Shown one piece after another: positions 36,427 through 48,510 of a stretch of 64,000 bases of DNA; within the stretch, counting starts at the first letter, position 1, and each line of letters begins with the position of its first letter. The notes beneath the pieces are model-generated. The model ran no database searches. It worked only from the letters and a program-made list of their open reading frames with translations, and had not been told where the DNA came from. This stretch comes from Deltaproteobacteria bacterium HGW-Deltaproteobacteria-13 (GTDB taxonomy: Bacteria; Desulfobacterota; Syntrophia; Syntrophales; Smithellaceae): NCBI GenBank assembly GCA_002840555.1, contig PHBJ01000003.1:128412-192411 (forward strand), given 5' to 3'. A program made the position numbers and the translations under genes.

Positions 36427-37765
36427 TTATTTTATCTGAACCGTTTCAATAACAGCCTCAACTCTACGGTTTTTCTGCCGCCCTTCCGGCGTGTCATTAC
36501 CTGCTATCGGCCTGGTTTTTCCATAACCAACAGCGGTAATGGTGGCCGGGTCAATCCCTAATTTATCAATTAAGTATTTCCGCACGCTCTCCGCCCGGTT
36601 CTGAGATAATTTCATATTGCTTTCCGCCGTGCCGACATTATCGGTATGTCCTTCGATCACAGCATTGGTCTCGGGATGCGCTTTCATAAAATCAGACACT
36701 TTTTTGATGTCGACATGATATCTCTTCTTAATATCAAACTTATTGGTATCAAATTCCACATTAAGCGAGATGGAAATTTTTTCATGCACACAGCCGTCTT
36801 TATCGACCGTCGCACCGGCCGGGGTATTGGGGCATTTATCAAGATAATCGGCAACGCCGTCTTTATCCGAATCCACGGGGCAGCCGTCTTTATCGACAAC
36901 CACGCCGGCTGGCGTCCCGGGACATTTATCAAGATAATCGGCAACGCCGTCTTTATCCGAATCCACGGGGCAGCCGTCTTTATCGACAACCACACCAGCC
37001 GTCTTTATCGACAACCACACCGGCCGGCGTGCCGGGGCATTTATCAAGATAATCGGCAACGCCGTCTTTATCCGAATCCACGGGACAGCCGTCTTTATCG
37101 ACAACCACACCCGCCGGCGTGCCGGGGCACTTATCAAGATTATCGGGAACACCATCTTTATCGGAATCTAAAATCACGACAGGAGGCGGCGGTTCCTCAA
37201 GCTTGGGTTCCGCAACTTTCTTTTCACCACCGAAGGCAAAAGTAATTCCCACGGTTCCGAGGAAATCATTATAATTATCATTGGTAGGAAGCACATGGCG
37301 AACGTCTGCCCGCAGGGCAATGCTGTCCGTCACGAATATTTTCAGGCCGGCGCCATAATCGATATAAAATTTGTTCATGTTGCCGGAATCGCCGGCAGGA
37401 GCGTTATAGTGAATTTCTCCGATACCAACCGCCAGAAACGGAACAAAGCGGCTCTCGGGCATAAAATGATAAAGGCCTTCAATGCCATAACCAAATAATT
37501 CAACTTCATCATTACCGGTCATATTTTTAATTTCGGTTGGAACGTAGCTCAAAACACCTTCCACACCTATATTTTTTGTAAAGTTATAACCGGCGCGCAA
37601 ACCGGCGGCATAGGTATTTCTAAAATCATACTCATTGCCTTCAAAGATATAAGTTCCAATAAACGGCGTCACTGAAAAAGAACCTGCCTTAATTTCCGCC
37701 TGTACTGTAGTGGCTACAGCCAGCAACAGAACAAACACTACCAACATGCCAATTTTTTTCATCAT
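36427..37765 (-). pseudogene. OmpA-family protein with TSP3 repeats, frameshifted by a 25-bp duplication
   Basis: A gene of about 440 codons split into two frames. The first part has a signal peptide (MKKIGMLVVFVLLLAVATTVQA), an OmpA-type eight-stranded beta-barrel (about residues 25-190) and two Asp-rich thrombospondin type 3 repeats of 30 residues (SDKDGVPDNLDKCPGTPAG type). The second part has two more repeats and an OmpA/MotB peptidoglycan-binding domain (IEGHTDNVGTAESNMKLSQN, then NRRVEAV). The break at 36972-37021 is a perfect 25-bp tandem duplication, which shifts the frame and gives a stop three codons after it. Deleting one copy restores a continuous protein with four repeats. I start at ATG 37765 (or 37762), just after AAAGG. 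As it stands the product lacks the peptidoglycan anchor. Confidence 0.85.
36972..37021. repeat. perfect 25-bp tandem duplication in the OmpA gene
   Basis: Two identical 25-bp units, 36972-36996 and 36997-37021 (each begins AGCCGTCTTTATC on the plus strand), lie head to tail inside a 90-bp coding repeat. Because 25 is not a multiple of 3, the second unit shifts the reading frame. Confidence 0.95.
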
Positions 37766-37938
37766 CCTTTGTTCCTGCCTCTTTACATAATAAATTTTTT
37801 CGGGATATTTTATAATTACGAGGTATCGCTTCCTGCCCAAAAAGTCGGTTCCTCATACTCAAAAACAACTTCTGTGTCAATGTTTATTGGCACTTATTCA
37901 TGATCAGATATGAATGGTATAAGAAGGAGGTCGTGTGA

Positions 37939-39502: not shown

Positions 39503-40699
39503 ATGATTTCAAGACGTGATTTTTTAGCAACACTTGCAAAACTGGCCGCAACTGCCGGCGGCGCAGGCATGATTCTGTGCTCTCCCTCCTGGCAGAAGTT
39601 TTTATTTGGCGATAATTCCGCTCTTGCTTTCGGAGATACCTATTTAGATGAACTCATCCGATCGGCGCCGAAGGCCCGTTACTGGAAACCTGTTACGCTT
39701 AAAAACAGCGCCTCCCCGCAAGAGGGAAAAATTGTTCAATGTCTGCTCTGCGCCAACGGCTGCGTGATGGCGAACGGCCAACGGGGAAAGTGCCGGACGC
39801 GCATGAATGTCAACGGAGACCTGAAGAGCCTTGTCTATGGCCGTCCCATCTCCATCCATGTTGACCCGATTGAAAAGAAACCATTTTACCATTACCTGCC
39901 GGGATCAGCGGCATTCTCTCTGGCCACCGCCGGATGTCCGCTCCGTTGCAAATTCTGTCAAAACTGGGAAATCTCTCAGGCATCACCGGAAGACAATCAG
40001 ATTTCATATACGCCGCCCGTTGGGATCGTCAATGCTGCGCAGACCATTAAGGCGCCCGTTATTGCCTTCACTTATAACGAACCGACGGTTTTCACGGAAT
40101 ATCTGACCGACATCGCCCGGGACGCGAAAAAGCAGGGTATTCATTCCGTATTAATCAGCTGCGGATTCATGAACGAGGCACCTCTCGCGGAAATGTGCAA
40201 TGTCCTTGATGGCGTCAAGATCGATCTGAAGAGCTACAGCGATGATTTTTACCGCAATGTTTGCGGGGCGCAGCTGCGGCCGGTTCTCAGAAGCATCAAA
40301 CAAATAGCGAAAAGCCGCGTTCATCTGGAAATTGTCAATCTGGTCGTGCCCACTTTAAATGATTCGGACAAGATGCTGCAAGGATTGATCGACTGGATAG
40401 CGGGTGAAGTTGGCCCCGATGTTCCCGTTCACTTCACCCGCTTTCATCCCGATTATCAGTTGCGGAATCTCCCCCCTACACCCGTTGCCACTCTGGAGCG
40501 CGCCTATCACATGGCCATGAGCAAAGGAATACATTATCCCTATGTGGGAAACGTGCCGGACCATCCGGGAAATCACACCTACTGTCCGAATTGCAAAAAG
40601 ATCGTTATCAAGCGTCAGGGCTTTTTTATAACAGAAATGAACTTAGCGGGCGGCCGGTGTAAATTCTGCAAACACAAGATTGCCGGTGTGTGGGCATAA
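39503..40699 (+). CDS. amrS: AmmeMemoRadiSam-system radical SAM enzyme with Tat-type signal
   Basis: A 398-residue radical SAM enzyme of the AmmeMemoRadiSam system, paired with the Memo/AMMECR1 protein that follows. The N-terminus reads MISRRDFLATLAKLAATAGG, a twin-arginine motif (SRRDFLA) followed by a hydrophobic region, so export is predicted. An upstream cysteine set (CLLCANGCVMANGQRGKC) resembles an auxiliary cluster. The radical SAM cluster motif is CPLRCKFCQNWEI (cysteines near 145, 149, 152). The C-terminus has another cysteine group (YCPNCKKI; RCKFCKHKI). I chose ATG 39503, with AAGGAT before it, over GTG 39461. The substrate is unknown. A periplasmic radical SAM enzyme would be unusual, because SAM and low-potential electrons come from the cytoplasm. 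Confidence 0.85.
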   Translation: MISRRDFLATLAKLAATAGGAGMILCSPSWQKFLFGDNSALAFGDTYLDELIRSAPKARYWKPVTLKNSASPQEGKIVQCLLCANGCVMANGQRGKCRTRMNVNGDLKSLVYGRPISIHVDPIEKKPFYHYLPGSAAFSLATAGCPLRCKFCQNWEISQASPEDNQISYTPPVGIVNAAQTIKAPVIAFTYNEPTVFTEYLTDIARDAKKQGIHSVLISCGFMNEAPLAEMCNVLDGVKIDLKSYSDDFYRNVCGAQLRPVLRSIKQIAKSRVHLEIVNLVVPTLNDSDKMLQGLIDWIAGEVGPDVPVHFTRFHPDYQLRNLPPTPVATLERAYHMAMSKGIHYPYVGNVPDHPGNHTYCPNCKKIVIKRQGFFITEMNLAGGRCKFCKHKIAGVWA

Positions 40700-40716
40700 G
40701 AAGAGGTTTAAAGAAA

Positions 40717-42255
40717 ATGAAAATATTGCGATGGAGCATGATCCTCCTTGTTATCAGTTCCTTTTTTGCCGCGGCCTGTCAGGCCGATAAAGCGTCGGAT
40801 GCTGATGTTCGAGAACCTGCTTTTGCCGGGAAGTTCTATCCCGATTACGCGGCCAGGCTGAAACTCGCCGTCGAAAAATATCTTCAGGATGCCGTGCCCG
40901 CCAAAGTAAAAAACCCGGTGGCCATCATCGTACCCCATGCCGGATACATTTATTCCGGCCAGATTTGCGCCGACGGGTTCAGGCAGGCCGCTAATCAACC
41001 CTATGATGTGATCGTTGTTTTGGGAACAAAACATACAAACTCTGATTTACAGAAAATTTCGCTCTATCCGGGTGACGGTTTTCGCACGCCTCTCGGTACG
41101 GCCCGGGTGGAAAAGAATCTGATAACCGCCCTCAAAAAGGCCGATCCGTCCGATTGTACTCTGGATAAATCACTTCACGAATCTGAGCATTCCGTCGAAG
41201 TCATGGTGCCCTTTATCCAGGTTGTCTTTCCGAAAGCGAAGATTGTTCCCATTGTTGTCGGATCAGAGGATATGGAGACATGCATTCGCTTCGGCCAGGC
41301 ACTGGCAAAGGTTTTGAAAAACAAGAGGGCCTTGATTGTCGCCAGTTCCGATCTTTCCCACTACCCGGCGGCAAAAGATGCCGATATCGTAGACAGAGAA
41401 ACCCTCGCGGCTGTTGCCGGACTCGATCCCGCCGTATTTCGCGCGACGGTGCAGGCGCACAGGGATAAAAAAATCCCCAATCTTTATACAAGCGCCTGCG
41501 GAGCAGCTCCGATCATGGCGGCAATGGCAGCAGCCCAATCTTTGGGCGTGAAGGGCGGAGCGGTCATCAGCTACGCCAATTCAGGGGATACATCGATCGG
41601 TGACTCCTCGCGGGTCGTAGGCTATGGCGCGGTTGTTTTAACCGCGGAAAGGATGGGAAAAGATATGAGCGTATCAGATCAAGCAAACCCGGCGGCGGCT
41701 TCCGCCGATCTCTCGCCGGCCGATAAAAAGGCACTGCTTGCCTTCGCCCGGGAAACCATATCCCGTTTATTGCTGACGGATACCGTTCCCCTGGCCAGAG
41801 GTTTTAACGCAACACTTCAACAACCGCGCGGAGCTTTTGTGACGCTCAAGAAGAAGGGCGAGTTGCGCGGCTGCATCGGCCGGATGATTGGAGATGAACC
41901 GCTTGCCAAAACTGTCGGCATGATGGCCGTTCAGGCAGCTGTTAATGACAGACGGTTTAACCCGTTAACCGCCGATGAACTGAAAGATATTGAGATAGAA
42001 ATATCCGTGCTGACGCCGATGAAGCGGGTGGCCGGTGTTGCCGATATTGTTGTCGGGAGAGACGGCGTCCTGCTGAGTAAAGAAGGACGTTCGGCCGTCT
42101 TTCTTCCCCAGGTCGCGACGGAACAGGGATGGAGTCGTGAAGAAATGCTGGATAATCTTTGCCTCAAAGCGGGACTTGCGGCGGGAAGCTGGAAAAAGGG
42201 AGCGCAATTTTCAACCTTTCAGGCTGTAGTATTCAGCGAATCGCAGTTCAAATAA
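40717..42255 (+). CDS. amrB: fused Memo-AMMECR1 lipoprotein (AmmeMemoRadiSam system proteins B and A)
   Basis: A 512-residue protein. The N-terminus (KILRWSMILLVISSFFAAAC) is a lipoprotein signal with a lipobox ending AAAC. The Memo domain (about residues 40-310) has FAGKFYPDYAARLKLAVEKY, VPHAGYIYSGQICADGFRQA, the TKHTNSDL motif and SSDLSHYPAAKDAD, giving a probable metal site of His and Asp residues (HAGY, SDLSHY). The AMMECR1 domain (about residues 330-505) contains the invariant LRGCIGRMIGDEP and the C-terminal SVLTPMKRV. The two partners occur as separate genes in many genomes; here they are one polypeptide, stopping 4 bp before the spermidine-synthase-like gene. ATG 40717 was preferred to GTG 40690. 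Confidence 0.88.
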   Translation: MKILRWSMILLVISSFFAAACQADKASDADVREPAFAGKFYPDYAARLKLAVEKYLQDAVPAKVKNPVAIIVPHAGYIYSGQICADGFRQAANQPYDVIVVLGTKHTNSDLQKISLYPGDGFRTPLGTARVEKNLITALKKADPSDCTLDKSLHESEHSVEVMVPFIQVVFPKAKIVPIVVGSEDMETCIRFGQALAKVLKNKRALIVASSDLSHYPAAKDADIVDRETLAAVAGLDPAVFRATVQAHRDKKIPNLYTSACGAAPIMAAMAAAQSLGVKGGAVISYANSGDTSIGDSSRVVGYGAVVLTAERMGKDMSVSDQANPAAASADLSPADKKALLAFARETISRLLLTDTVPLARGFNATLQQPRGAFVTLKKKGELRGCIGRMIGDEPLAKTVGMMAVQAAVNDRRFNPLTADELKDIEIEISVLTPMKRVAGVADIVVGRDGVLLSKEGRSAVFLPQVATEQGWSREEMLDNLCLKAGLAAGSWKKGAQFSTFQAVVFSESQFK

Positions 42256-42259
42256 TCTC

Positions 42260-44419
42260 ATGGCCTTTTCTCTTCTCGCCATTGGACTGATTTCAATTCT
42301 GGGACAGGTTGTCCTTCTCCGGGAATTGAATGTCTCCTTTTACGGGATTGAATTAATTTATCTTCTGGCCATGGGCATCTGGTTATTCTGGACGGCTGTG
42401 GGCGCCGCTATCGGACGCCGGAATCATTCTCCGTCGGTCAACAGCATCGCGGCGCTTTTTATCATCTTCGGCATGGTCCTTCCTTTGGATATTCTGTTCA
42501 TCCGTTCCAGCCGTCTGATCTTTGGCGGCGTACCCGGCGCGTATCTTGCTTTTTATCAGCAATTAATTGTCTTGGTCATGGCCATCCTCCCCGCGGGGTT
42601 ATTGTCAGGTTTTTTATTCCAGCGGGCCGCAAAGGCCTATGTGGCAAAAGACAAAACGCTCGCCGCTGCGTACGCTATTGAAAGCGCGGGCGGATTAATC
42701 GGCGGATTGTTTTCCACCCTGTTCATCATGTGGGGGGTTAGGAATTGCTCTATAGCTTTTGTGTGCGCTCTTCTCTCCATCATAACGTCCTTCATCGTTT
42801 TAAGGGGATTAAAGTCATCTCATCTGCGCTTTGCGGCGATAGTCCTGACGTGTATATTTCTGACACTACTCTGGAAAACATCAGCTATTGATCGCCAAAC
42901 GACTCTGTGGAATCACCCGAATCTTCTGGAAAGCGGCGATTCCCCATACGGCAGAATTACGGTAACCCGGCTGTACAATCAGATTTCCGTTTTTGAAAAT
43001 GACGCTCTGTCGTTTGAGACTGAGGGAACCGACGCCGAGTACTTCAGCCATTTAACGGCCCTCCAGCACCCCAACCCTCAAGACGTATTGATTCTGGGCG
43101 GAGGAGTTGAGGGTATTGTCAGAGAGATTGCCAAGTACAAGCCCAAACGGATTGATTATGTGGAACTTAACCCCGTCATGCTGAACCTGGTGACGCAATA
43201 TCTTCCTGATGACATCCGCAAGTCACTGGGAGAACAAAACGTCCATATTATATTTGCCGATCCCCGGCAGTATCTTGAAAATAGCGGCACATACGATCTT
43301 ATTATGGTTGGCATGCCCGAGCCGTCATCGGGACAGGCAAACCGCTTCTATACGCGTGAGTTTTTCGAACAATGTTCGACAAAACTGAATCGCGGGGGAA
43401 TTCTCGGGCTCAGGCTGCGCGCGGCGGAAAATCTATGGACCCTGCCGCTTGCGGACCGCAACACGAGTATCTACAGCGCTCTGCAATCCGTTTTTCCCGA
43501 TGTGTTGTTTCTTCCGGGAACAACAAACGTTATCACGGCCTCGCACGCTCCTCTTCCCCGCTCGCCGGAAATAATGTCCCGCCGGTTACAGAACATGAAA
43601 ATTGAGACAAGATTAATTTCGCCCGATTACATCCATTATCTTTTTACAAACGACAGATTTTTTGAAATCAGGAATTTACTCCAGAAAGAAAATTCGCCGC
43701 CCAATTCCGACATCCGGCCGGTCTGTTATCAGTACGCCTTCATCATCTGGCTGTCTCAGTTTTTTCCGCGCGTCGCTCTTCTCGACTTTTCAACCATTGC
43801 GAATAAAGGCTTTTTCAGATCGCCGTTTTTGTTTTTGTGGATTGGGTTGCCCCTCCTCTTTCTTCTTTGCCGCTTCCGGCCCGCGCTCCGCCGAACCATG
43901 CTGGTCGCCTCGGCAGGCTTTCTCGGCATGGTGATGGAAACCATCCTCATCCTTTATTATCAGGTGAAACACGGGGTGCTCTATCAGGATATAGGATTGC
44001 TCCTGATGAGCTTTATGGCCGGTCTTGCCGCGGGCGCAATCATTATCCAAAAAGCGATGACCCGGCTGGTTCAAAATCAAAAAAGGTTCCGATGGCACGG
44101 CATCGGCCTGCTTTCCGGATTTTGTCTTTTGTGCGCTTTTACGGGAATGATGATAACGATGAGCCTCTCCGCCGGTCTTATCGGGATTTCATGTCTTTTG
44201 GCGGCAACAGGTTTTTTAGTCGCGGGAATTTTTGCCTATGCCAGCCTTCATGAAATTGATGATCAGAAAAAAATAATTTCACCGCTCTACTCGGCAGACC
44301 TTATCGGCGGATGTCTGGGCTCCCTGCTGGGCAGTCTGATCTTCATCCCTCTGGCGGGAATGGATGTCACCCTATGGGGAATGCTTCTGCTTGCCGCGTT
44401 TTCCATTCTTTTGCTATGA
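42260..44419 (+). CDS. membrane-embedded spermidine-synthase-like protein
   Basis: A 719-residue protein with three parts: about seven membrane helices (residues 1-200), a soluble spermidine-synthase-like domain (about 215-440) and six further helices (about 515-719). The soluble domain has SPYGRITVTRLYNQISVFEN, SHLTALQHPNPQDVLILGGG, VEGIVREIAKYKPKRIDYVE and YDLIMVGMPEP, where the polyamine-synthase catalytic Asp (usually in the D-P-P motif) is missing: MPEP replaces it. It may therefore bind SAM or a related molecule without making spermidine. It begins 4 bp after the Memo-AMMECR1 gene and is almost surely co-transcribed with it. Family members with this layout are of unknown function. Confidence 0.78.
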   Translation: MAFSLLAIGLISILGQVVLLRELNVSFYGIELIYLLAMGIWLFWTAVGAAIGRRNHSPSVNSIAALFIIFGMVLPLDILFIRSSRLIFGGVPGAYLAFYQQLIVLVMAILPAGLLSGFLFQRAAKAYVAKDKTLAAAYAIESAGGLIGGLFSTLFIMWGVRNCSIAFVCALLSIITSFIVLRGLKSSHLRFAAIVLTCIFLTLLWKTSAIDRQTTLWNHPNLLESGDSPYGRITVTRLYNQISVFENDALSFETEGTDAEYFSHLTALQHPNPQDVLILGGGVEGIVREIAKYKPKRIDYVELNPVMLNLVTQYLPDDIRKSLGEQNVHIIFADPRQYLENSGTYDLIMVGMPEPSSGQANRFYTREFFEQCSTKLNRGGILGLRLRAAENLWTLPLADRNTSIYSALQSVFPDVLFLPGTTNVITASHAPLPRSPEIMSRRLQNMKIETRLISPDYIHYLFTNDRFFEIRNLLQKENSPPNSDIRPVCYQYAFIIWLSQFFPRVALLDFSTIANKGFFRSPFLFLWIGLPLLFLLCRFRPALRRTMLVASAGFLGMVMETILILYYQVKHGVLYQDIGLLLMSFMAGLAAGAIIIQKAMTRLVQNQKRFRWHGIGLLSGFCLLCAFTGMMITMSLSAGLIGISCLLAATGFLVAGIFAYASLHEIDDQKKIISPLYSADLIGGCLGSLLGSLIFIPLAGMDVTLWGMLLLAAFSILLL

Positions 44420-44480
44420 GGACAAGCAATCCGATGCCTGTTCGCCCGAAACGAAACCCCTGCAATCGGTCAAAAGGCGG

Positions 44481-44509
44481 TTGACAAAGATATATTTTAT
44501 CTGGTTAAT
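44481..44509 (+). promoter_or_regulatory. promoter candidate before the patatin-Omp85 gene
   Basis: TTGACA (44481-44486), a 17-bp spacer, GTTAAT (44504-44509). Transcription would begin near 44516, after the in-frame ATG at 44508 but before the ATG at 44550. This supports 44550 as the real start of the following gene. Confidence 0.5.
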
Positions 44510-44549
44510 GTCTAATCATCTGCTATTGAAAAAAGAAACGGATCGGCCC

Positions 44550-46817
44550 ATGATGGATTTTATGAATGCAGGAAATAAAAGAGTGTTTTTATACCGGGCT
44601 TTATTGTTTCTATTTTTTTGTTTCGTCTCCTTTATTTTCTCTTCCGCTCCTGCGGCGGCCGGTCAGAACGAACCGGCGCAAAATCAGTCCCGTCCCCGCG
44701 TCGGCCTCGTCCTGAGCGGCGGCGGCGCCCGGGGCATTTCTCATATCGGAGTCATTAAGGTTCTTGAGGAGATGCGTGTTCCTGTTGATTTTATCACGGG
44801 AACAAGCATGGGGGCTATTGTCGGCGGCCTTTATGCCGCGGGAATGTCGCCTGACGATCTGGAAAAACTTGTCACCGGTATCGACTGGGATAACGCTTTC
44901 ACAGACAGGCCGGCGGTTGATGAGCTGGCTTTCCGCCGGAAGCAAGACTCTCAGCGCTACAAAATCGATGTTGATCTGGGTTATCGGGATGGGAAATTTG
45001 CCATGCCGAAAGGTATGATTCAGGGACAAAATCTGAATGTGCTGCTCAAGACGCTTCTCCTGCATACGGCGGATGTTAAGGATTTCGATAATCTGCGCAT
45101 TCCTTTTCGCGCCGTTGCCGCGGATATTGAAACAGGCGATCAGGTTATTCTGCAATCGGGAGATCTGGCCCAGGCGATTCGCGCCAGCATGTCCATCCCC
45201 GGCGTATTCGCGCCCGTGGAAATCGGCGGCCGCATGCTGGTGGATGGCGGTATTGCCAATAATCTTCCGGCCGACATTGCCAGGCAAATGGGAGCCGATA
45301 TTATCATTGCTGTTGATATCGGCACGCCGCTGCGCTCACGCGAAAATCTTTCTTCGGCAGCCAGTATCACTGCGCAGGTCATGACCATTCTCATCCAGAA
45401 AAACATGCAGGCGCAGCTTGCCAACATGAAAAAAGAAGATATTGTCATCCAGCCTGTTTTGGGCAACATCGGCACATCGGATTTTTCCAATGCCGCCCGG
45501 ACCCTCTCCCTCGGTTATGAGGCTGCCGATAAAGTGAGAAACCGACTGGCGGCGCTGTCTGTTGGACCCGGCCTTTATCAGAAATATCTGGCACAACAGC
45601 GCAAAGGTTCGACGAAGGAGCCTGTCATTGATTATGTCCGGGTGGAAAATAATTCGCCGCTGGCGCCGCAGGTTCTGGAAGCGCAAATTGAAACGAAAGC
45701 CGGCGAGACATTGAATCCGGAAAAACTGGTCAGGGATACGCGGCGGTTATATGGACTCGATACCTTTGAAAGCGTGGATTTTCGCCTCGAAAATATCAAC
45801 AAACAGACAGGTCTGGTTTTTACAACCAACGAGAAATCATGGGGCGATACATTTATTAAGTTCGGATTCAGCATGGCGGATAATTTCAAAGGAGAAAATA
45901 CTTATTCCGTCGGAGCAAGTGTCACAAAAACAGGACTGAACGCGCTGGGCGGCGAATGGCGGACAGAATTTCAAATTGGAGATTCGCCCCGGGTATTTAC
46001 CGAATTCTACCAGCCGCTCACCTCTTCAACCCGCTTTTTCATCAACCCTCAGGCGGAATTCCGGCAGCGCAATGTCAATATTTTTGACCATAATGGTAAC
46101 ATCGTTGCTCAATATCTTATCCGTTACATGGCGGGTGGTTTAGGCGTAGGAAGACAATTGGGCAACTGGGGAGAAATCAGATTGGGACTCTTCCGGGCCT
46201 ATGGCGGGTACAAGGTGAATATCGGCGATCCGGCCCTGCCGTCTGACAGCTTCAACGAAGGCGGTTTGATTACATCATTTTCTTATAATACGCTTGACCG
46301 GTTTGATTTTCCGACTCGCGGCGCCGAAATTGATGCAATTATAACAAACAATTTTCAGGCGCTTGGCGCAGACGATAATGCGAACAGCCTGACACTGTCC
46401 TGGCAGGTCGTCAAAACGTGGGGCAAATACACTTTCATTCCGGGCATCCTTTACTCCGGGTTTTTTAACAGTAATGAGACGATTGAGAATTCTTATAACA
46501 TTGGCGGTTTTTTCAATCTCTCCGGCTATTCTCCCAACGAGCTTTCCGGCCGGCAGGTCGGCGTTACCCGCGTCATTTTTTACCGCAATATGGGCAGCGT
46601 CGGATTGGGCAGCTTTCGGAATCAGCTTTATCTGGGGGGATCCGCGGAAGCCGGCAATGCCTGGCAGCCCAAGGAAGATATTACATTGGACTCTCTTATT
46701 TACGCGGGCAGCGTGTTTGTGGGATTAAATACCTTCTTAGGACCTGTTTTTCTGGCTTACGGTCTGGCGGAAGGCGGCCATCAGACCATTGGTCTTTCTC
46801 TGGGACAGCGTTTCTGA
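44550..46817 (+). CDS. patatin-like phospholipase with Omp85/BamA-type barrel (PlpD-like, type Vd)
   Basis: About 755 residues. A signal peptide (YRALLFLFFCFVSFIFSSAP, then AAAG) is followed by a patatin domain: VGLVLSGGGARGISHIGVIK (oxyanion loop, near residue 56), GTSMGAIVGGLYAAGMS with the nucleophile Ser near 84, and RMLVDGGIANNLPADIA with the catalytic Asp near 231. A POTRA-like segment (VDYVRVENNSPLAPQVLE) and a C-terminal 16-strand Omp85-type barrel (about residues 420-755) end in LSLGQRF, a terminal-Phe barrel signal. This is the domain plan of type Vd autotransporters such as PlpD. An overlapping longer start (44364) lies inside the upstream gene and before the promoter. Confidence 0.9.
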   Translation: MMDFMNAGNKRVFLYRALLFLFFCFVSFIFSSAPAAAGQNEPAQNQSRPRVGLVLSGGGARGISHIGVIKVLEEMRVPVDFITGTSMGAIVGGLYAAGMSPDDLEKLVTGIDWDNAFTDRPAVDELAFRRKQDSQRYKIDVDLGYRDGKFAMPKGMIQGQNLNVLLKTLLLHTADVKDFDNLRIPFRAVAADIETGDQVILQSGDLAQAIRASMSIPGVFAPVEIGGRMLVDGGIANNLPADIARQMGADIIIAVDIGTPLRSRENLSSAASITAQVMTILIQKNMQAQLANMKKEDIVIQPVLGNIGTSDFSNAARTLSLGYEAADKVRNRLAALSVGPGLYQKYLAQQRKGSTKEPVIDYVRVENNSPLAPQVLEAQIETKAGETLNPEKLVRDTRRLYGLDTFESVDFRLENINKQTGLVFTTNEKSWGDTFIKFGFSMADNFKGENTYSVGASVTKTGLNALGGEWRTEFQIGDSPRVFTEFYQPLTSSTRFFINPQAEFRQRNVNIFDHNGNIVAQYLIRYMAGGLGVGRQLGNWGEIRLGLFRAYGGYKVNIGDPALPSDSFNEGGLITSFSYNTLDRFDFPTRGAEIDAIITNNFQALGADDNANSLTLSWQVVKTWGKYTFIPGILYSGFFNSNETIENSYNIGGFFNLSGYSPNELSGRQVGVTRVIFYRNMGSVGLGSFRNQLYLGGSAEAGNAWQPKEDITLDSLIYAGSVFVGLNTFLGPVFLAYGLAEGGHQTIGLSLGQRF

Positions 46818-46938: not shown

Positions 46939-48510
46939 ATGGACCACGAACCATTTCATCATCTCAGACGCAGGGATTTTGTTAAATACTCTTTTTTAAT
47001 GGCGGCAGCTATGTCTATTCCATCAATTCAGGGATGCGCGATTCCCAAAAAGAATGTGCCCGCGCTTGATTATAAAACGTTCCTGATAAAAAACGCCCGT
47101 CTGGTGGACGTGGTCTCCGGACAGGTTGTTGAGAACGCCTGGCTGCTTGTGGATAAGGGAACGATAACCGCTCAGGGAACCGGTGAAGCTCAAAATAATC
47201 AGAAGCGTCTTGTCATTGATCTGAAAGGCCGCTACCTGATACCCGGGCTTATCGACGCTCATTGCCACAGCACATCCTCTCCGGTTTTCTCCATGAGCAT
47301 GATCGATCTTTTGCACCACTCCCGTCAGCAGAAACAGAATTTCGTGTCTTCGATTGAATCCGGCGTAACCACCATCAGAGATATGGGCGCTTTCCCCGGC
47401 CTTCTGCACATGTTTATCAAAGATATCGAAAAAGGAAACATGCCCGGCCCGCGCGTTGTTTACTGCAATTCCATTCTCAACGTCATGGGGGGGCATCCCG
47501 AAATTCCTCCATCGGACGTTAATATTTTCGCCAAGCCCGCCTCTCTTTTTATCGGCATGATCATGGACAATTTCAGGAATACCGCCGAAATGGAAGAATA
47601 CCTTGAAGAAAACGCCAGGGGGGCTTCATTAATTAAATTGACACTGGATAATCAGACTATTTTCTGCAAGAAAAATAAGGCGATTCCCGTTTACACCAAA
47701 GAACAGCTCGATATCATCTTTCGTTTTGCTGAAAAAAGAGGGCTGCCTGTTGTGGGACATCACCAGTATAAATACGGATTTGACCGCGCGATGGAGTATC
47801 CCTTTCATTCGATCGAACATATTGTTAACGACACGGTTCTGTCCGATGATGACGTGATTAAAATGGCCAAACGAAACATTGCGATCGTTCCCACCATGAC
47901 CGTCGGGCAGTCTTTCCTGATGGAAGAAGCCTTTGATGAGATCCCTGAGCGTTACCGGACACCGGAAATCATAAAAGAATTGCAGGTCAGAAAAAAATAT
48001 TTCGAAAATGAGGCGGCAAATCATTGTGATCCTCTGCTGCACAGACAGAATCTTTCCGCCCTGAAATATTACAAGACCATAGGCTATGATAATCTCTGGA
48101 AGAAAAAGAAATTTCTCGTCAACCCGGAAGTCTTTTTTAACATGATCGGCAATGGCTACGCCAGTCTCAAAAAAATGAATCAGGCGGGAATTCTCATCGG
48201 CTGCGGCATTGACGCGGGTATGCCTTTTTGTTATTTCGGCGGCAACTACAGAGAATACGAAATATTGCAGCGTGTGGGTTTTTCCAACATCGAAATTCTC
48301 CGGTGCGCCACCATCAACAACGCGAAGATTCTTGTTCTCGCGGACAAAACCGGATCGCTGGAAACCGGGAAATACGCGGATATGGTTGTGCTGGACAAAA
48401 ACCCGCTGGAGGACATTCGTGTTTTAAGAAATCCCCAAATGGTTTTCAAACAGGGCGACCTGATGTTTTCCGCCGGAAATCTTCAGAAAGACGGAACCCT
48501 TCCAGCCTGA
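46939..48510 (+). CDS. exported amidohydrolase-family metal hydrolase
   Basis: A 523-residue amidohydrolase-superfamily enzyme (imidazolonepropionase/prolidase-like group). The N-terminus has HLRRRDFVKYSFLMAAAMSI, a twin-arginine-like motif, then a possible lipobox (SIQGC), so it is predicted to be exported and perhaps lipid-anchored. The catalytic core shows the N-terminal beta strands ending GRYLIPGLIDAHCHSTSSPV (first metal-binding HxH near residue 108-110), GVTTIRDMG, LPVVGHHQYKYGFDRAMEYP (later His ligands), and the C-terminal GCGIDAGMPFCYFGG with the metal-site Asp. The C-terminal beta domain ends GKYADMVVLDKNPLEDI. A periplasmic hydrolase for a cyclic amide or peptide is likely. Its promoter is close by. 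Confidence 0.85.
   Translation: MDHEPFHHLRRRDFVKYSFLMAAAMSIPSIQGCAIPKKNVPALDYKTFLIKNARLVDVVSGQVVENAWLLVDKGTITAQGTGEAQNNQKRLVIDLKGRYLIPGLIDAHCHSTSSPVFSMSMIDLLHHSRQQKQNFVSSIESGVTTIRDMGAFPGLLHMFIKDIEKGNMPGPRVVYCNSILNVMGGHPEIPPSDVNIFAKPASLFIGMIMDNFRNTAEMEEYLEENARGASLIKLTLDNQTIFCKKNKAIPVYTKEQLDIIFRFAEKRGLPVVGHHQYKYGFDRAMEYPFHSIEHIVNDTVLSDDDVIKMAKRNIAIVPTMTVGQSFLMEEAFDEIPERYRTPEIIKELQVRKKYFENEAANHCDPLLHRQNLSALKYYKTIGYDNLWKKKKFLVNPEVFFNMIGNGYASLKKMNQAGILIGCGIDAGMPFCYFGGNYREYEILQRVGFSNIEILRCATINNAKILVLADKTGSLETGKYADMVVLDKNPLEDIRVLRNPQMVFKQGDLMFSAGNLQKDGTLPA

Follow-up and report, generated by a model that had tools for sequence, protein, structure and literature searches.

Can a radical S-adenosylmethionine (SAM) enzyme do its work outside the cytoplasm? 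Radical SAM enzymes are taken as cytoplasmic since they need SAM together with a strong reductant, and we know of no supply of either outside that compartment. The question is raised by three consecutive genes in a 64,000-nucleotide stretch (the window) of contig PHBJ01000003.1 from Deltaproteobacteria bacterium HGW-Deltaproteobacteria-13, which is contig C3 of a 3.5 Mb genome. They encode a radical SAM enzyme of the AmmeMemoRadiSam family (here RS), a Memo-AMMECR1 fusion and a membrane protein of the major facilitator superfamily (MFS) type (here SP). We propose that these genes specify an extracytoplasmic form of the AmmeMemoRadiSam system with SP as its third component, a reading that we consider probable although far from secure. 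Its parts differ in strength. That both RS and Memo-AMMECR1 are exported, with the enzyme intact, appears highly likely. We also lean, less firmly, toward radical chemistry that runs outside, because the catalytic cysteine triad has been kept under selection, and we suggest only tentatively that SP handles SAM or its products. The basis for all of this lies in the sequences: the genes, the signals that they encode, a catalytic motif that is intact, and an SP of MFS type with its predicted topology. From these we infer actual export and activity outside.

The RS gene (398 aa; 39503..40699, + strand) has AAGGA 5' of its ATG, and its product scores 366.8 bits against TIGR04337 (AmmeMemoSam_rS, cut-off 220) and 60.5 bits against PF04055. 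The N-terminus, MISRRDFLATLAKLAATAGGAGMIL, carries a putative twin-arginine translocation (Tat) signal (39503..39628, + strand) in which SRRDFL is followed by a hydrophobic stretch to about residue 25. A first-pass annotation of this DNA had read SRRDFLA as a twin-arginine-type signal and this is borne out: the Tat model TIGR01409 matches residues 2-24 with 18.3 bits, above its curated cut-off of 16.7, none of 15 aligned relatives departs from Arg4 and Arg5, and TatC is encoded in the window's genome (253.7 bits). At the sequence level the twin-arginine motif, the h-region and the Tat machinery expected of a Tat substrate are all present, and a possible cleavage site, AxA at residues 40-42, can be seen by eye. 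The CxxxCxxC motif (C145, C149 and C152; 39935..39958, + strand) is invariant in the same 15 relatives. In the tree set, no member of the triad is missing from any of the 70 exported rows, five of which were curated by eye, or from any of the 29 non-exported rows. Residues C80, C83, C87, K243, E276 and C361 are kept equally in both groups.

The Memo-AMMECR1 fusion (512 aa; 40717..42255, + strand) follows after 17 bases and scores 245.2 bits against TIGR04336 (AmmeMemoSam_B, cut-off 26) and 175.5 bits against TIGR04335 (AmmeMemoSam_A, cut-off 99), with PF01875 and PF01871 also matching. It begins with a predicted signal peptide (40717..40779, + strand; N-terminus MKILRWSMILLVISSFFAAAC) that ends in a lipobox AAAC at Cys21, the sequence FAAAC21 being recognizable by eye as that of a bacterial lipoprotein. 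Members of the genus and locus L041 retain a Cys here, whereas L035 and L039 have lost it and still possess the hydrophobic N-terminal stretch. The lipoprotein signal described in the first-pass annotation holds with that qualification, and the conserved feature would thus be a secretory-type signal more than lipidation as such. In the Memo domain (40813..41634, + strand), residues H74, H106 and C261 align to H49, H81 and C244 of MEMO1 and, of the 47 exported Memo proteins, 47, 47 and 46, respectively, retain them. Passages of a study of human MEMO1 (PMC11081632) give those three residues as its metal ligands and describe binding of copper or iron, and its abstract states that the primary molecular function of MEMO1 is unknown. 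The AMMECR1 domain (41740..42234, + strand; PF01871, 176.2 bits) contains an LRGCIG motif of which all six columns are invariant in 11 of 11 sequences. An apparent Memo-MFS fusion at L036 was rejected as a wrong-frame reading in GC-rich DNA, the Memo gene being in another frame with a signal of its own.

The third gene, SP (719 aa; 42260..44419, + strand), is the adjacent membrane protein with a SAM-family domain that the first-pass annotation had pointed out, and its match to the spermine-synthase domain PF01564 (73.8 bits) agrees with that description. The AlphaFold model (12-row alignment; predicted local distance difference test score 84.6, predicted template modeling score 0.86) has a globular region (about residues 222-515; 42923..43804, + strand) set between seven long helices and seven more. 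VIA-align comparisons, which cover the Foldseek-ranked structures, match the globular domain to the aminopropyltransferase 3anx (Z 28.2, root-mean-square deviation 2.5, 272 residues aligned) and the membrane part, taken across residues 1-719, to SV2A 9okg (Z 27.4, deviation 3.5, 330 aligned), FLVCR2 8qcx (Z 24.5) and XylE 4ja3 (Z 24.3). The Z-scores of 23.6 to 27.4 over 325-345 residues identify an MFS fold; no MFS Pfam model matched SP at E 0.001. With seven helices before the domain and the N-terminus inside, the domain is predicted to lie outside, and the distribution of Lys and Arg agrees: these residues are in excess on the inside loops of 46 of 46 sequences, including that of the window (763 inside versus 213 when totaled; truncated SP at L078 and L130 were dropped from the residue and loop counts and loops of more than 45 residues were left out). 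Residue roles were assigned by alignment to 1uir. D334 and E302, which by their place in the aminopropyltransferase fold would bind adenine and ribose, are kept in 46 of 46 and 42 of 46 sequences. At the position that we take to be the first catalytic residue of the DxxDP segment, only 5 of 46 sequences have Asp and the other 41 have lost it; in the window it is Gly351. Since the adenosyl-binding residues are kept and this catalytic Asp is lost, the outer-face domain looks adenosyl-binding and probably no longer acts as an aminopropyltransferase. SP falls short of the equivalog cut-offs for spermidine synthase (PRK00811, 94.9 against 260; speE, 83.6 against 249.55; PRK03612, 105.4 against 472) and scores 27.5 bits against NF037959, the fused MFS/spermidine synthase model, under its cut-off of 40.

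These features extend beyond one genome. In a scan of 84,980 species, each represented by a single genome, 590 of the 591 stretches listed could be confirmed, and we retained the 80 best loci; these are the best matches to a profile of the exported type and not a random sample, and taxon labels follow the records, which are mostly metagenome bins. Twenty regions around high-scoring RS were also taken from relatives; a Tat signal was called in 17 of 20, and RS, Memo-AMMECR1 and SP stand together in 14 of those 17 (L038 and L052 stop at contig ends and L041 is without SP in the 16 kb fetched). Among the matches listed, the trio was found in contigs labeled Latescibacterota, Acidobacteria, Chloroflexi, Desulfobacterales, Bacteroidales and Omnitrophota and in one archaeon, while Tat-type RS signals carry the labels Latescibacterota, Acidobacteria, Chloroflexi, Desulfobacterales, Kiritimatiellae, Bacteroidales, an Altiarchaeota archaeon and others, and Sec- or anchor-like RS signals occur in several Omnitrophota, one Elusimicrobia and one Chlamydiae contig. 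Distantly related microbes apparently export an RS together with a Memo partner and a transporter-like SP.

Signals were called with a rule set of our own, and the counts are those of this classifier unless marked as by eye. It was applied to 119 RS loci (120 minus L055, which is cut at the contig start), 20 of which had been fetched deliberately as signal-less second copies, and it called 63 Tat, 10 Sec or anchor and 46 none, the last including the 20 second copies. Signals visible by eye were missed at L086, L088, L115, L117, L200, L203, L209 and L214, the anchor of L068 lies in a neighboring frame, and L069, L072 and L108 were labeled Tat despite a very hydrophobic stretch. Where a complete Memo was nearby, a Memo signal was called with 37 of 43 signal-bearing RS versus 2 of 10 others; in all six signal-bearing cases lacking a call the Memo N-terminus is hydrophobic by eye, and the reverse, a called Memo signal with no call on RS, is seen at L068 and L117 (KR-type). 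The window's genome supplies an internal control in the form of a signal-less second RS on contig C18 (336 aa, 41% identity to the window RS, no N-terminal extension). The genes upstream of it resemble, by eye, MoaA and a methyltransferase, and the 15 kb region gave no Memo match.

What argues most strongly for the importance of export is the association between signal type and TatC, which was sought in 43 genomes. A very hydrophobic, Sec- or anchor-like RS signal (mean of at least 2.5 over 12 residues, a line set after the distribution was seen) occurs in 12 of these, and 9 of the 12 gave no TatC match; among 23 with a Tat-like signal 1 gave none (L064), and the 8 remaining genomes, which have no called RS signal, all have TatC. 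By the raw classifier labels, 6 of 9 Sec and 4 of 26 Tat cases are without TatC (p 0.007). In draft genomes such absences may reflect incompleteness, and the Fisher values for TatC, as for the SP and Memo associations, ignore kinship. RS therefore seems to keep some export signal where Tat is missing. A KR pair stands in place of RR (SKREF, NKREF, SKRQF) at L106, L113, L116, L125, L126 and L130, in Bacteroidota and Ignavibacteriae contigs, and TatC, looked for in each of these genomes except that of L130, is present in all five. In a 99-row RS tree, all 55 Tat and 10 Sec rows fall within one 78-row branch (Shimodaira-Hasegawa-like approximate likelihood ratio support 91) that also holds 13 rows called none. 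The exported state changes four times on this tree (labels curated by eye), and with so few changes export of RS looks old. Three Bacteroidota rows (L102, L110 and L114; 97, starred) lack all three features at once, a signal on RS, one on Memo and a neighboring SP; their genomes have TatC and no SP match at E 1e-10.

SP, in turn, follows the signal-bearing form of RS. It lies within 8 kb of RS at 43 of 73 loci with a signal versus 3 of 46 without, at 34 of 48 versus 3 of 32 when at least 2.5 kb is available on both sides, and at 29 of 56 versus 3 of 23 among the 79 usable species-scan loci alone (Fisher 0.002). The three signal-less loci with SP are L063, which is unclear, L068, whose neighboring-frame anchor is probably the result of a frameshift, and L088, which has RK for RR. 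A strong SP (at least 340 bits) is present elsewhere in the genome for 20 of 30 exported-type loci whose neighborhoods lack it. For 17 signal-less loci, 5 genomes reach the 340-bit line and G099 has a half-length match, and in three of these six there is a second RS with a signal (L168, L169 and L171). Within the window's phylum, SP was matched at E 1e-80 in 99 of 296 genomes, and RS was found in all 50 of the 99 that were searched. The best RS from 20 SP-bearing genomes gave 13 called signals, 4 more by eye, 1 cut and 2 none, and 20 of the 197 SP-less genomes gave 22 RS, among them a single signal-bearing one (L194) and one that is cut. At 395 bits or more against the exported-type profile, a line drawn after the scores were seen, RS is present in 46 of 50 SP-bearing versus 0 of 20 SP-less genomes. 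SP looks like a third component and not a mere neighbor. Export of both RS and its Memo partner, a possibility raised by the first-pass annotation, is supported beyond this one genome by the conserved signals, the signal-less second copy, the link between signal type and TatC, and the SP domain predicted on the outside.

We put forward a hypothetical mechanism in which RS folds with its iron-sulfur cluster in the cytoplasm and is then exported by Tat. It would meet the Memo-AMMECR1 lipoprotein at the outer face of the cytoplasmic membrane, where the adenosyl-binding-like domain of SP would also reside. SP might deliver SAM to RS or might remove or recycle its products, and electrons could come from membrane redox proteins. 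Candidate answers to the SAM and electron puzzle are SP itself, for SAM or products, and the DsbD_2, FMN_bind and Fer4_5 proteins that stand beside some relatives, not beside the trio of the window. These three families carry electrons across or onto the membrane. Among 179 scanned of 208 neighbor proteins at 65 exported loci, DsbD_2 is the commonest family (9 of 179), and DUF362 accounts for 7 of 179. Neither is among the 25 commonest families in 90 scanned of 186 neighbors of non-exported RS, a control listing that is incomplete at two-member families, so that either could occur up to twice among the 90; MoaA-like and methyltransferase families are commonest there. At L061 and L091 a single protein combining DsbD_2, FMN_bind and Fer4_5 is encoded directly upstream of RS, and all nine DsbD_2 loci are among the 12 with very hydrophobic signals. 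The fullest version of the proposal, that radical SAM chemistry runs outside in many phyla through a Tat-exported RS and a membrane-anchored Memo-AMMECR1, with an MFS carrier that has a SAM-binding domain on its outer face and brings SAM across the membrane, and with electrons from DsbD_2, FMN_bind and Fer4_5 membrane proteins in some lineages, is speculative, and we would not expect all of it to hold. Beside exported RS, DUF362 proteins were also seen at L064, L075, L080, L085, L090 and others, several with a Tat-like start of their own, and heavy-metal P-type ATPase-like proteins occur near L071, L113 and L126 (farther off at L049).

Several observations weigh against the extracytoplasmic system with SP as its third component. 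Ten of the 30 exported loci without a nearby SP have no strong SP elsewhere in the genome, G090, G106 and G103 have an SP match and no exported RS seen (the second copy in G103 is cut), and in G119 an exported-type RS is present without an SP match at E 1e-80. Many of the SP-bearing genomes are drafts, and SP is within 6 kb of RS in just 24 of 50. Independent-pair tests on the RS tree yield 1 to 6 pairs, too few for significance, and the association between signal type and TatC rests on few tree changes (four for signal type), with TatC present in 3 of the 12 Sec-like genomes. Moreover, Sec exports unfolded chains, so assembly of the iron-sulfur cluster would have to take place outside, or the protein would need some other treatment, and Sec-type export is hard to square with cluster insertion in the cytoplasm. 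Directly beside the trio of the window, no electron-carrier gene was seen.

The alternative that survives best, although we hold it to be rather unlikely, is that SP works on its own as a permease for polyamines or nucleosides, sharing the operon without serving RS. It would account for the three genomes with SP and no exported RS seen, and for the 26 of 50 SP-bearing genomes in which SP lies over 6 kb from RS or on another contig; it should also be noted that the fold alone gives no substrate. Such a permease would not, however, be expected from the presence of RS in every SP-bearing genome searched, from the split in exported-type RS scores between SP-bearing and SP-less genomes, or from the loss of the first catalytic aminopropyltransferase Asp in most SP sequences.

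Less likely again is that the proteins are exported as proposed but RS carries out no radical chemistry outside and instead has an iron-sulfur, metal- or adenosine-binding role with Memo. The lack of any known SAM or strong reductant beyond the cytoplasm favors such a role, as does the lack of an electron-carrier gene directly beside the trio in the window. Nevertheless, the cluster cysteines and the other conserved residues are retained in the exported rows as in the non-exported ones, and a SAM-fold domain predicted on the same side of the membrane, that of SP, is conserved with RS.

We regard as improbable a third possibility, in which the N-terminal segments are tethers and RS faces the cytoplasm. 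At L104 and L108 positive residues flank the hydrophobic stretch on both sides, leaving the orientation ambiguous, and a tether would remove the oddity of Sec-type export of an iron-sulfur enzyme. Across 60 Tat-type rows, however, the mean net charge is +2.4 before the stretch and about 0 after it, with 49 of 60 carrying more positive charge at the N-terminal end, and neither the signal that the Memo partner usually carries nor the tracking of TatC by signal type fits a cytoplasmic RS.

Very improbable, in our view, is that RS places a radical on the glycine of a Memo segment, SRVVGYGAV (residues 297-305, 41605-41631), that resembles the glycyl-radical motif, which we take to be RV[SC]GY. After its own family the best RS matches are activase models (TIGR02493, 64.1 bits), V301 and Y303 are conserved in 55 of 55 Memo proteins and G302 in 49 of 55, and such a motif arose in 33 of 200000 shuffles of protein P0003. 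Ser or Thr replaces the Gly in six exported systems, however, Memo has a LigB-like fold and is not a glycyl-radical enzyme, and the resemblance was noticed after the fact; no glycyl-radical enzyme was seen among the annotated neighbors of the window RS. That the signals are chance look-alikes is scarcely credible even though the calls come from our own rules and not from a dedicated predictor, given that signals were called in 73 of 119 real loci versus 43 of 2380 shuffled upstream regions, that the RR pair is invariant in 15 of 15 relatives, and that signals are associated with TatC and with a Memo signal.

Around the trio, the gene that follows on the same strand encodes a patatin-like phospholipase with POTRA and a BamA-like C-terminal part (44364-46817). 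It is followed by an amidohydrolase (46939-48510) whose start has a Tat-like RRRDFV and a lipobox-like IQGC (by eye) and which may be a second Tat-type protein just downstream. Upstream, on the minus strand, an OmpA-type-like gene with calcium-repeat units (36427-37840; family assigned by eye) is split into two overlapping frames at an apparent 25-base tandem duplication around 36971-37026.

If the proposal is correct, the cytoplasm-only rule for radical SAM enzymes would be broken by a conserved group of exported proteins that has a dedicated partner of MFS type, SAM or a derivative of it would be present outside the cytoplasm, and there would be a handle on the function of Memo and AMMECR1. 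An open-licence literature search returned no title or abstract opening describing such an exported system. What is new here is an exported variant within the known AmmeMemoRadiSam family, which would become a new kind of system if the chemistry were shown to take place outside. In common with the AmmeMemoRadiSam system (TIGR04337, TIGR04336 and TIGR04335), that of the window has all three members above the cut-offs, in adjacent genes and with the same catalytic cysteines; it differs in the signals on RS and Memo-AMMECR1 and in the MFS-type third gene, and the model names and descriptions are silent on export. The closest characterized radical SAM relatives of RS are the activases of glycyl-radical enzymes, such as the pyruvate formate-lyase-activating enzyme (TIGR02493, 64.1 bits; TIGR02494, 62.6; 8fo0, 42.8), but RS carries a signal and scores far under the cut-offs of 231.75 (TIGR02493) and 174.35 (TIGR02494). 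The Memo domain shares both His and the Cys metal ligands with MEMO1 (7kq8 and 3bcz) and differs in its fusion to AMMECR1 and in its lipoprotein-type signal. With the polyamine aminopropyltransferases, including spermidine synthase (PF01564; 1uir and 3anx), SP shares the fold of the inserted domain (Z 28) and the adenosine-binding Asp and Glu, whereas its first catalytic Asp is replaced by Gly, it has a conserved NR stretch, and its domain is flanked by seven helices on each side and predicted to lie outside. Finally, SP has the membrane fold of SV2A and other MFS proteins (9okg, 8qcx and 4ja3, over 330-342 residues), from which it is set apart by two extra helices and by the enzyme-like domain that we propose lies on the same outer face as the exported RS and its Memo partner.

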